From: Rufibacter latericius
Lineage (GTDB): Bacteria > Bacteroidota > Bacteroidia > Cytophagales > Hymenobacteraceae
Length of the DNA: 64,000 bases
NCBI RefSeq assembly: GCF_003721515.1
Contig: NZ_RJJD01000001.1
Span: 806,001 to 870,000 of the forward strand
Direction: 5' to 3'
Shown: piece after piece, positions 55,245 to 58,784 of the stretch
Layout of the letters: each line of letters begins with the position of its first letter
How positions within the stretch are numbered: position 1 is the stretch's first letter
Made by a program: the position numbers and the translations under genes
Notes under the pieces: generated by a model
Seen by the model: only the letters and a program-made list of their open reading frames with translations
Database searches by the model: none
Told to the model about the DNA's origin: nothing

Positions 55245-55943
55245 CTAAAATGGCAAATCATCATTTGGTAGGTCATCATTTATAGATGATAAAGCTGAAA
55301 TTTTGCTTTCATTTTGCAACAAATACTCGACTCCACTTTGAGAAATTTTGTATGCATAAAAAACATTCCCAGAATTATCTTCGGTATTTTCCTTTTCAAG
55401 ATATCCTAGTCTTTCCAACTTTATTACACACAAATCAATTTGATTATCATTAACCTCCTTAATATCTTTCTTTACAACCCAAATTGGCCAACCTACTGGA
55501 GCTTGAGTATAAGTAGAAATCAGTGAGGAAAGGACTTTAAAATCAATATCTGACAGGTGATTATTTAGTGTATGATTTAATTGATTATCAACTTTGTATA
55601 ATTGGGCATTTTTGATGGACCCAAGTCTTTCAACTTCTCTTTTAATCTTGGTACAAGCTACATTTACGGCAGATGTTAGATCATTATCCGATCTGTTTGG
55701 CTCGTAATCAGCAGTTGTCATTCCAAGTAGGTCTGTTGGCAGGTGCAATTCTACACCCCTTGGCTTGACGATATAGCATCTTTCCTTTCCTATTGTACCA
55801 ATAAATAACCCAAGTTCAAAAATCACATTATCTCTTACCACTTTCTTTTGCTCCTCCCTGATCATTAATAGATCATCAGGTGAGAATATAAAAACAGCAA
55901 AATCAACAGAGTATTGTATTGTTTGATAAAGCAAATGTGCCAT
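55245..55943 (-). CDS. TIR-like nucleotide-binding protein with a winged-helix-like C-terminus (front missing)
   Basis: 232 aa from a GTG-like upstream-less ATG at 55943. The first 95 residues are the back two-thirds of the predicted nucleotide-binding TIR-like domain (PF10137 type): VDFAVFIFSPDDLLMIREEQ, VVRDNVIFELGLFIGTIGKE, RCYIVKPRGVELHLPTDLLG. Family proteins begin with an RLFIG strand that is absent from this frame but present in another frame just upstream (55903-56049). The C-terminal 90 residues (VVKKDIKEVNDNQIDLCVIK, LERLGYLEKE) look like a winged helix. Such TIR-like domains occur in anti-phage systems. The DNA is distinctly AT-rich. Confidence 0.75.
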   Translation of the reverse strand: MAHLLYQTIQYSVDFAVFIFSPDDLLMIREEQKKVVRDNVIFELGLFIGTIGKERCYIVKPRGVELHLPTDLLGMTTADYEPNRSDNDLTSAVNVACTKIKREVERLGSIKNAQLYKVDNQLNHTLNNHLSDIDFKVLSSLISTYTQAPVGWPIWVVKKDIKEVNDNQIDLCVIKLERLGYLEKENTEDNSGNVFYAYKISQSGVEYLLQNESKISALSSINDDLPNDDLPF

Positions 55944-56237: not shown

Positions 56238-58181
56238 ATGGAGAATTTTGTTGTATCTGCTAGGAAATACCGCCCAACTACGTTTGATAGCGTGGTGGGG
56301 CAGCATCATATTACCACTACTTTAAAGAACGCGATCAGCAGTAACCACCTGGCGCAGGCATTCCTGTTCTGCGGCCCGAGGGGCGTGGGCAAAACCACGT
56401 GCGCGCGGATTCTAGCCAAGACCATCAACTGCCAGAACATCACGCCGGAGGTAGAGGCCTGTAACGTGTGTGATTCCTGCAAGAGCTTCAACAACAACAG
56501 TTCGTTCAACGTGCACGAGCTGGATGCCGCGTCCAACAACTCAGTAGAGGACATTAGAAACCTGGTGGAGCAGGTGCGCTATGCGCCGCAGACGGGCAAG
56601 TACAAAATCTATATCATAGATGAGGTGCACATGCTCTCCAACTCGGCCTTCAACGCGTTTCTGAAGACCTTGGAGGAGCCGCCAGCCTACGCCATTTTCA
56701 TTCTGGCTACCACTGAGCGCCACAAGATCATTCCTACCATTCTCTCGCGCTGCCAGATCTTTGACTTCAACCGCATCCGGATTGAGGACATGGTGCAGCA
56801 TCTGGGCCGCATTGCCCAAAAAGAGGAAATCAAAGCCGATGACGATGCCCTGCACCTGATCTCGCAGAAAGCCGACGGTGCCCTGCGCGATGCCTTGTCT
56901 ATCTTCGACCAGATGGTGACCTTCTCGGGACATCACCTCACCTACAAGGCCACCGTGCAGAACCTGCACATCCTGGACTACGATTATTACTTCCGCCTGA
57001 CGGAATACCTGCTTACCCAGAACCTGAGCGGCGCCTTGCTACTTTATGACGAAATCCTGAAAAACGGCTTTGATTCGCACAACTTCGTACTGGGCATTGG
57101 CGAGCATTTCAGGAGCCTCTTGGTGTGCAAAGACACGGTAACGGTTCAGCTGTTGCAGGTCTCTGACAACATCAAAGCCCGCTACGCGCAACAGGCGCAG
57201 GAAGCCTCGCTGAGTTTCTTGTTATCAGGACTGAACCTAGTAGGAAGCTGCGACCAGAACTTCAAAGCGGCTAAGAACCAGCGGTTGCACGTGGAACTGC
57301 TGCTCATGAAACTGGCTCACCTGCCGCACGCCTTGCAGCTTGCCTCAGACCTCTCTGTGAACGGAGAGGTCAAAAAAAAAACTAATGGAAGTTCCGTCGT
57401 AGGAGCGCAGAACGGTTCGGCTCCGGTTGGTGCTCCGGCAACTCCTGCTCCGGCGCCCGCTCCAGTTATTGCCCCGGCTTCCCCAGCTCCGGCTACACCG
57501 GTTTTAGCCCCTTCTGCGAAAAACGGCTCTGAAACGCACCACAACACCGCTCCCTCAGACATGGACGCCGGCGAAGACCCGGTGTTTGACACCTATCCGG
57601 ATCAGGCGCCTTCCCCGGTGCCTTCCATGGCGCCTCCAATGCCCGTAGCGGCGCCGGCAGCCCCGGCCCGGCCCATTGCTTCCCCCCTGGCCAGCCGGAA
57701 ACTCTCCAAGCTGCCCAGCCTGAAGAACATTGAGGAACAGGTAGCAGCCTCGGCAGCGCCGATGGTGGAAGTCTTGGAAGAGGAGAATGAGGCCTATGTG
57801 CCCGGCTCCCTACCCACCATAAATGAGCACAAACTGCAACAGCTCTGGAAACTGTACGTGGACCGCGTGAAGCACACCGACCGCACCCTAGAGTACACCA
57901 TCCTGAACCGCGAGTGGTACTTTGACGCTGAGAAAGCCGAGGTGCATTTGCAGGTGGAAAACGAAGTGCAAGTAGCCGAGTTCAACAGTTTTAAGCCGGA
58001 GTTTCTCTTGTATCTGCGTCAGGGACTGGGCCATAACCGCCTGCAGGTGCACATTGACGTGGTGCAGCAGGAAAATGCCCGCAAGCTCTACACCTCGCAA
58101 GACAAGTACAATTACCTGGCAGACATGTACCCTGCCCTCAAGGACCTGAAAAACCGGCTGGGTTTGGACACCGATTTCTAA
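56238..58181 (+). CDS. dnaX: DNA polymerase III subunits tau/gamma
   Basis: 647 aa clamp-loader ATPase. Seen: P-loop FCGPRGVGKTTCARI (about residues 47-61), the zinc-binding cysteines (CQNITPEVEACNVCDSC), the Walker B DEVHMLSNSAFNAFLKTLEE and sensor ATTERHKIIPTILSRC; domain III ends near 370. A Pro/Ala-rich linker (about 385-510) and a C-terminal tau-specific region follow. Right at the domain III/linker boundary is an A10 run (57372-57381). In frame it codes Lys379-381; slippage by one base either way meets a stop within 1-7 codons, giving a gamma-like product of about 382 residues. Confidence 0.96.
   Translation: MENFVVSARKYRPTTFDSVVGQHHITTTLKNAISSNHLAQAFLFCGPRGVGKTTCARILAKTINCQNITPEVEACNVCDSCKSFNNNSSFNVHELDAASNNSVEDIRNLVEQVRYAPQTGKYKIYIIDEVHMLSNSAFNAFLKTLEEPPAYAIFILATTERHKIIPTILSRCQIFDFNRIRIEDMVQHLGRIAQKEEIKADDDALHLISQKADGALRDALSIFDQMVTFSGHHLTYKATVQNLHILDYDYYFRLTEYLLTQNLSGALLLYDEILKNGFDSHNFVLGIGEHFRSLLVCKDTVTVQLLQVSDNIKARYAQQAQEASLSFLLSGLNLVGSCDQNFKAAKNQRLHVELLLMKLAHLPHALQLASDLSVNGEVKKKTNGSSVVGAQNGSAPVGAPATPAPAPAPVIAPASPAPATPVLAPSAKNGSETHHNTAPSDMDAGEDPVFDTYPDQAPSPVPSMAPPMPVAAPAAPARPIASPLASRKLSKLPSLKNIEEQVAASAAPMVEVLEEENEAYVPGSLPTINEHKLQQLWKLYVDRVKHTDRTLEYTILNREWYFDAEKAEVHLQVENEVQVAEFNSFKPEFLLYLRQGLGHNRLQVHIDVVQQENARKLYTSQDKYNYLADMYPALKDLKNRLGLDTDF
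57363..57398 (+). other. Predicted dnaX slippage site
   Basis: SD-like GGAGAGG (57363-57369) lies just before A10 (57372-57381). In the 0 frame the codons are AAA AAA AAA ACT. One extra A (or a -1 shift) gives AAA AAA AAA AAC TAA; one A fewer (or +1) gives AAA AAA AAA CTA ATG GAA GTT CCG TCG TAG. Confidence 0.7.
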
Positions 58182-58247: not shown

Positions 58248-58784
58248 ATGAACCAGCACCTCTTTGATCGTAAAACAGATTCTTTCTTCGGGGCCCTGAG
58301 TTATGTGGGATATGCGCTGTTGCTGGCGGGCCTGGTGCTAGGCAGCAGTGCCTGGTGGCGCACGGATGATGTAGACAAGGTTCAGATGCTGGCCGTTGGC
58401 ACGCTCCTGCTCCTACTAGGCGTACTGTTCAAATTCACATTCCACGGTTTCCAGCTCGATCTCCAGCACCGCCGCGTGCGGGAATACCTGAGCATGTTCG
58501 GCCTGAAGACCGGCAAGTGGGCGCCTTTACCCGCGTTCCAACATGTGCGACTCACCTCCCACCTCAGATTAGCCAAGGACCACGGCCACACCCATGATCA
58601 TGACCATGAACCCGCGGCTCCTGTCATGTGGTACACCATCGGGCTGTACTCCCAATCTGCAGAACCAGACTACGAACTCCGCACCGACAACGCCGAGGAC
58701 GCCCTGAAAACCCTCCACCTCCTTTCCACCCAACTAGGCATTCCCGCCGAGAACAACCTTGCCTCCCCTGCTTCCCATATATAG
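58248..58784 (+). CDS. Two-membrane-segment protein of unknown function
   Basis: 178 aa. Two membrane segments (GALSYVGYALLLAGLVLGSSAWW and MLAVGTLLLLLGVLFKFTF), then a cytoplasmic-type domain with a His/Asp-rich stretch (DHGHTHDHDHEP, about 118-129), which could bind metal. No family is recognised. It follows dnaX by 66 bases on the same strand with only a hairpin between, so it may share the transcript. Confidence 0.75.
   Translation: MNQHLFDRKTDSFFGALSYVGYALLLAGLVLGSSAWWRTDDVDKVQMLAVGTLLLLLGVLFKFTFHGFQLDLQHRRVREYLSMFGLKTGKWAPLPAFQHVRLTSHLRLAKDHGHTHDHDHEPAAPVMWYTIGLYSQSAEPDYELRTDNAEDALKTLHLLSTQLGIPAENNLASPASHI

Follow-up and report, generated by a model that had tools for sequence, protein, structure and literature searches.

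In Escherichia coli, dnaX contains a -1 ribosomal frameshift cassette with the slippery heptamer A_AAA_AAG, a Shine-Dalgarno (SD)-like stimulator some 10 nt upstream and a stem-loop a few nt downstream. The gamma subunit of this species has long been debated (PMC5009743, section 21). In contrast, dnaX of Thermus thermophilus employs transcriptional slippage on a run of nine A (Larsen et al., 2000, as described in PMC1088944 and in PMC5009743, sections 21 and 43); hallmarks of this type are messages with additional or lacking A's and two DnaX forms at similar levels. According to section 43 of the latter, the hybrid within the Thermus polymerase spans 9-10 bp and slippage takes place on runs of nine. 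The same section describes a Roseiflexus insertion sequence (IS) element, for which a hairpin 5' adjacent to the slippage motif is the enabling feature, while section 7 states for bacterial dnaX the idea that near-even slippage makes it indifferent which product the template encodes. Furthermore, GeneTack predicted transcriptional realignment on ten A's for nine dnaX genes split over two ORFs (Antonov et al., 2013; PMC3711429).

The dnaX gene of Rufibacter latericius, which we analysed within a window of 64,000 nucleotides, shares features with each of these systems. As in Thermus, an uninterrupted run of at least nine A lies late in a single tau ORF, beyond domain III, close stops are found in both other frames, and gamma is predicted to originate from slipped mRNAs. 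However, the run comprises ten A instead of nine, and a single tRNA-Lys isoacceptor was found in Rufibacter while Thermus possesses two (PMC5009743, section 21). The Rufibacter run, considered on its own, also adjoins a strong hairpin. With the cluster of Antonov et al. (2013) the locus shares the A10 and the presumed transcriptional realignment, and this cluster matches those relatives of R. latericius whose template encodes gamma. In contrast, the cluster genes span two ORFs and the gene studied here only one, nine A10 genes there compare with 251 A9-A11 genes here, and the passages of the 2013 paper cited here describe no hairpin at the dnaX A10. The IS630 transposase element of Roseiflexus resembles the locus in that its slippage motif is immediately preceded by an RNA hairpin, in the window an inverted repeat of 10 bp with a gap of 0. 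Yet its motif is a heteropolymeric T5C5 that allows a one-base deletion only and belongs to a mobile element (PMC5009743, section 43), whereas Rufibacter carries a homopolymeric A10 in a chromosomal replication gene. The E. coli gene gives the same product pair from one gene, and its heptamer, SD-like site and stem-loop recur in Pontibacter, while dnaX of the window lacks an SD-like site at the right distance and the hairpin just downstream is weak. Slippage on A10 in two-ORF dnaX genes was thus already predicted in 2013. Our literature search, which led to Antonov et al. (2013), PMC5009743 and PMC1088944, found there no description of a single-ORF A10 dnaX in Bacteroidota, of the hairpin or of its replacement by a ribosomal cassette; the hairpin, the exchange of devices and the conservation throughout the class therefore look new.

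The A10 run of Rufibacter latericius dnaX

The tau reading frame of dnaX (647 aa) occupies positions 56238-58181 of the forward strand. Its protein matches NCBIfam PRK14971 'DNA polymerase III subunit gamma/tau' with 805 bits at a cut-off of 685 and carries the Pfam domains PF13177 (residues 22-179), PF22608 (186-231) and PF12169 (domain III, 246-366); it represents the complete gamma/tau subunit. Residues 1-366 (56238-57335) are common to tau and gamma and make up domains I-III, with the clamp-loader ATPase, the lid and domain III. The original prediction placed an uninterrupted A10 at the border between these domains and the linker, and exactly ten A's are found there, at 57372-57381: 12 residues separate the end of domain III from the run, which forms codons 379-381 in the context GTC AAA AAA AAA ACT and reads Lys-Lys-Lys-Thr as proposed. 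The Pro/Ala-rich linker and the tau-specific C-terminal part follow (57382-58178). One extra A, or a -1 ribosomal shift, leads to Asn and then at once to a TAA (57383-57385), with a predicted gamma of 382 aa, again as anticipated. One A fewer, or a +1 shift, leads to a TAG at 57400-57402 and a predicted gamma of 387 aa. This stop lies just beyond the interval originally marked (57363-57398) and is reached after six sense codons; the seven given at first include the stop itself. Both short products retain domains I-III, and their computed lengths agree with the earlier estimate of about 382-388 residues. Long A-runs are scarce in this genome: 44 overlapping A9 matches on both strands, collapsed by position, correspond to 37 runs of at least nine A and six of at least ten A in 5.67 Mb.

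Directly upstream of the run, an inverted repeat (57348-57371) folds into a hairpin of 10 bp and -15.9 kcal/mol, composed of a 5' arm (57348-57357), a loop (57358-57361) and a 3' arm (57362-57371) that leaves no gap to the run. None of 100 synonymous shuffles equalled this energy, and for the region of 101 nt a folding energy of -41.7 kcal/mol was obtained (z -4.6). It is by far the strongest adjoining hairpin among 24 distinct A-runs of the genome that were examined (taken from the 30 of 44 matches with loci, of which one was unusable and some were repeats), the runner-up reaching -6.7 kcal/mol. The 3' arm includes GGAGAGG (57363-57369), which the original prediction had read as an SD-like element 2 bases upstream of the run. 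While the sequence is present, a role as an E. coli-type SD stimulator is ruled out by its distance, as it lies too near the run and forms a hairpin arm. An RNAalifold consensus of 16 Rufibacter genes comprises a 9-bp stem that ends exactly at the run; its nine pairs hold in 99.3% of cells, as compared to 33-56% with a slid partner. One of these pairs switches between G-C and C-G in five of the 16 sequences, thereby coupling a Leu/Val codon to a Glu/Asp codon five codons later, and is broken in one sequence. On two of five pairing measures, shuffles do equally well (472 of 500).

We consider it likely that the A10 is a programmed site of transcriptional slippage, assisted by the hairpin, that yields gamma in Rufibacter. 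Once the polymerase finishes copying the run, its RNA-DNA hybrid of 9-10 bp would consist entirely of rA:dT pairs and could realign by one or more bases. At this moment the RNA of 57348-57371 could fold into its hairpin inside the exit channel, right next to the hybrid, and thereby favour the realignment. As ten A's just fill such a hybrid, both the run length and the zero gap would find an explanation. Messages with A10 (or A13) would then give tau of 647 aa (or with one extra Lys), and those with A9 or A11, which stop soon or at once, a gamma of 387 or 382 aa with domains I-III. We infer the occurrence of slippage, its share and the role of the hairpin; what the sequences show directly is the A10 with its stops and its hairpin, and that these are conserved.

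Conservation and frame switching across relatives

Comparison with relatives was based on 346 dnaX loci, corresponding to 321 distinct genes if those identical in the first 900 nt after the Walker motif are counted once; 300 belong to the class (families f1-f29 and named loci) and 21 lie outside. The family sample comprises 101 of 150 family genomes, while the wider samples were hand-picked among the matches listed in an order search (186 of 194 genomes matched) and a phylum search (196 of 198). Three order matches (G307, G235 and G258) were skipped since their contigs end downstream, and two weaker matches from the own genome (L002 and L003) were left out. Group names (Rufibacter g1, Pontibacter g3, Hymenobacter g5 and g6) follow 900-nt identity to named records, g101 is perhaps Flavobacterium-like, and the class name Bacteroidia was derived from named members. 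The class sequences are related and do not represent independent observations.

The original prediction expected relatives to keep A9-A11 and the out-of-frame stops while codon choice elsewhere varies, and this is what was found. All 16 Rufibacter genomes carry the A10 at identical codons, spelled by AAA throughout, while upstream Lys codons of Rufibacter dnaX are AAA in 138 of 274 cases. The neighbours of the run change (Thr/Ile, Asn/Asp), yet a stop persists in the -1 frame (TAA or TGA) and, at the same place, in the +1 frame (TAG or TAA) of all 16. Across the class, 251 of the 300 distinct genes possess A9-A11, exactly A10 in 224 of them, and such runs are carried by 87 of 98 sampled genera, so that the design extends far beyond the Hymenobacteraceae, a point absent from the original prediction. 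Codon phase varies as well: the A10 starts in phases 0, 1 and 2 in 84, 40 and 100 of the 224 genes, and readings as different as Lys3-Thr, Glu-Lys3, Leu-Lys3 and others all spell it. Thus the nucleotide run is conserved and not a Lys pattern. A second run of at least nine A occurs in only six of the 251 genes within the stretch examined. Judged from these sequences, the conserved run is not a product of chance, and the proposed Thermus-like design gains support from the runs and stops of the relatives. Outside the class, seven of 21 sampled dnaX genes (L288, L289, L293 and L295-L298) show A9-A10 in the linker region, some of them in split genes.

In every one of the 251 A-run genes, a single frame of the three opens into tau (>100 codons). 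The frame that needs one A more than tau is closed within three codons of the run in 221 genes and the frame that needs one A fewer within six codons in likewise 221, against control values of 0.205 and 0.264 for start points that lie 10-90 codons farther along these genes. Closure of both non-tau frames fits slippage in both directions, while a one-way -1 ribosomal shift would not need it. The template itself reads tau in 154 genes (frame 0); 90 require +1 nt (or a -1 shift) and seven require -1 nt. Hence 97 of the 251 templates spell gamma and need a shift for tau, which the original prediction had not foreseen. Most of these tau frames match the tau tail of the window's protein (E 1e-3), with 146 of the 154, 81 of the 90 and 6 of the 7 genes and thus 87 of the 97 shifted frames. 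Either product, tau or gamma, can thus be the template-encoded one. Since 80 of the 90 +1-nt genes also have A10, the frame offset resides in the flanks. One FastTree gene tree of 172 chosen domain I-III proteins, short-run genes excluded, requires 23 or more changes of the tau frame, although errors in the tree and isolated A11 assemblies may make this number too high. Such frequent changes fit slippage near one half, which would make the template product nearly indifferent.

The hairpin is widespread in the class. A hairpin of at most -4 kcal/mol ending within 3 nt of the run is present in 177 of 251 genes (0.71), compared to 0.203 at control sites, and its distance peaks at zero (gap 0 in 109 and gap 1 in 42 of the 177). 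Synonymous-codon shuffling still leaves a fraction of 0.414 and base permutation 0.295; with one gene per genus (110 groups) the corresponding values are 0.555 observed, 0.324 and 0.231. A synonymous p of at most 0.05 was reached in only 63 of 251 genes, and in Hymenobacter g6 the shuffles attain 0.71. The class signal is real but owes part of its strength to composition or protein sequence, most of all in Hymenobacter. Nor is the hairpin obligatory, as it is missing from most genes of several families (present in 2 of 11 in f4, 1 of 7 in f2 and 0 of 3 in f27). In class-wide pooled covariation, changed pairs were kept at 0.423 (controls 0.14-0.47), not clearly above the controls, and pairs with both sides changed amounted to 0.098 (0-0.109 at 13 control positions). 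Support for the hairpin consists of its position, its energy and one compensatory pair, the latter in Rufibacter only.

Ribosomal frameshifting and other explanations

The original prediction named relatives with a broken run as evidence against itself. Such relatives exist in Pontibacter and some other groups, together 49 of the 300 class genes, yet 42 of the 49 carry an in-phase -1 heptamer near the site and a close stop in one of the two frames. The heptamer is A_AAA_AAA in Pontibacter and L258, A_AAA_AAG in g2, one Pontibacter-group gene, g78, g61 and g96, and G_GGA_AAG in L356 and L362; neither run nor heptamer was found in the remaining seven (L081, L087, L152, L205, L215, L220 and L277). 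The 34 Pontibacter genes show a downstream hairpin at 1.00 (control 0.36) and an SD-like site, scored by string match as in all groups, at 0.88 (control 0.20), while the adjoining upstream hairpin is at control level (0.35 vs 0.32). Among the other eight heptamer genes, SD-like sites reach 0.88 (control 0.23) and downstream hairpins 0.50 (control 0.17); their adjoining upstream hairpins (0.75 vs 0.11) count against a perfect split. In the 251 A-run genes, by comparison, downstream hairpins (0.26 vs 0.27) and SD-like sites (0.12 vs 0.21) do not exceed controls, but adjoining upstream hairpins do (0.71 vs 0.22). Thus Pontibacter, a member of the same family, resembles an E. coli-like ribosomal cassette, its A_AAA_AAA being preceded by an SD-like site and followed by a stem-loop. 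Single Pontibacter sequences fold this local GGTAG...CTACC stem-loop without backing from covariation, as RNAalifold on 31 genes delivered a short and a long-range helix but neither this stem-loop nor a compensatory pair. Since 42 of 49 short-run genes have a heptamer, most with ribosomal stimulators, the two-product design seems to be kept by another route, and our reading is that A-run and heptamer genes may be two mechanisms for one end, swapped within families.

These relatives raise the question whether the window's gene itself makes gamma in the E. coli manner, by -1 ribosomal frameshifting within the run. The run lacks A_AAA_AAG, but A_AAA_AAA is present in phase, the stop after a -1 shift is immediate in all 16 Rufibacter genes, and the short-run relatives look like ribosomal cassettes. 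The sole tRNA-Lys found in the Rufibacter genome is UUU, encoded by two genes (2 of 41 Rfam matches in this genome were not called by ARAGORN), so that shifting is possible on tRNA grounds; a pattern search for tRNA-Lys(CUU) gave 0 of 60 genomes, but the pattern was without positive control and is not relied on. We also count against slippage a stem of 7 bp that begins some 20 nt past the run in the window region and a strong, nearer downstream hairpin (-19.1 kcal/mol) in L018, one of three Rufibacter genes shown. However, the hairpin that starts just downstream of the window's run is weak (-2.1 kcal/mol, and -2.2 in L006), the longest SD-like match at -18 to -7 comprises 3 nt while GGAGAGG is only 2 nt away, and SD sequences are reportedly not recognised by the ribosomes of Bacteroidia (PMC9976891). 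Furthermore, the run keeps ten A's where seven would be enough, a stop soon ends the other frame too, and seven genes would require the opposite shift for tau. Taken together, a purely ribosomal origin of gamma appears rather unlikely. Somewhat better placed, though still the lesser possibility, is a combination of both levels at one site, in which polymerase slippage makes most gamma, ribosomal shifting adds some and lineages drift between the two. The in-phase heptamer inside the window's run and the heptamer-only genes in several lineages of families otherwise equipped with A-runs would suit such a scenario, whereas the stimulators follow the type of site when A-run genes are compared with Pontibacter, which suggests one dominant level per lineage.

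Two further explanations are very improbable. If no recoding took place, the run would be due to chance or to a Lys3 feature of the linker at the protein level, and AAA is indeed the commoner Lys codon of the class (0.65 upstream in A-run genes). Against this stand the equal run length in three phases, the early closure of the two remaining frames, the 97 of 251 genes that need a shift to reach tau and the rarity of other long A-runs in the same genes (6 of 251). Just as improbably, the two-ORF cases could be homopolymer assembly errors: A11 accounts for five of the seven -1-nt cases, and none of the seven stems from a single-contig assembly. However, 80 of the 90 +1-nt cases share the A10 length with in-frame genes, their offset lies in the flanks, and 42 genera show an offset in every A-run gene sampled.

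Implications and neighbouring loci

Beyond Rufibacter, we lean, with less confidence than for the single site, toward a class-wide chromosomal element in which a hairpin set against a hybrid-filling A10 would set the gamma:tau ratio in Bacteroidia. With slippage close to even, its template frame would be almost neutral and would have flipped between tau and gamma many times, while several lineages, including Pontibacter, would have swapped to a ribosomal device. If so, the switch between RNA-polymerase slippage and ribosomal frameshifting would have been replicated many times by nature within one essential gene, which could reveal the cis-signals that each of the two requires. Hairpin-assisted slippage would be extended from a mobile element to a housekeeping gene, and the split look of many Bacteroidota dnaX genes would be explained. 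It would also speak for selective maintenance of the gamma subunit throughout the class.

A further kind of shift site is apparent in two heptamer genes, L356 (a Cytophagales MAG) and L362 (an Arcicella MAG): dnaX ends as gamma with GGGAAAG and then TAG, after an SD-like GGAGGG. In L362 the -1 frame continues for 205 codons without a stop, while the locus of L356 ends first. Elsewhere in the genome of R. latericius, another in-frame A10 (L039, contig C14 near 335117) lies six codons before the end of a 368-aa ORF, presumably a SIR2-type protein, and folding gave no hairpin adjoining this run. Next to dnaX, a 178-aa protein is encoded just downstream (58248-58784, forward strand), for which the Pfam search delivered no match. 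On the other side, an ORF on the reverse strand (55245-55943) contains the C-terminal half of a CAP12/Pycsar TIR domain (PF10137, profile positions 51-118 of 119). The apparent N-terminal half was seen by eye just upstream, in another frame and up to about 56100, and with its halves in different frames the gene looks split. Its product is possibly an anti-phage effector.
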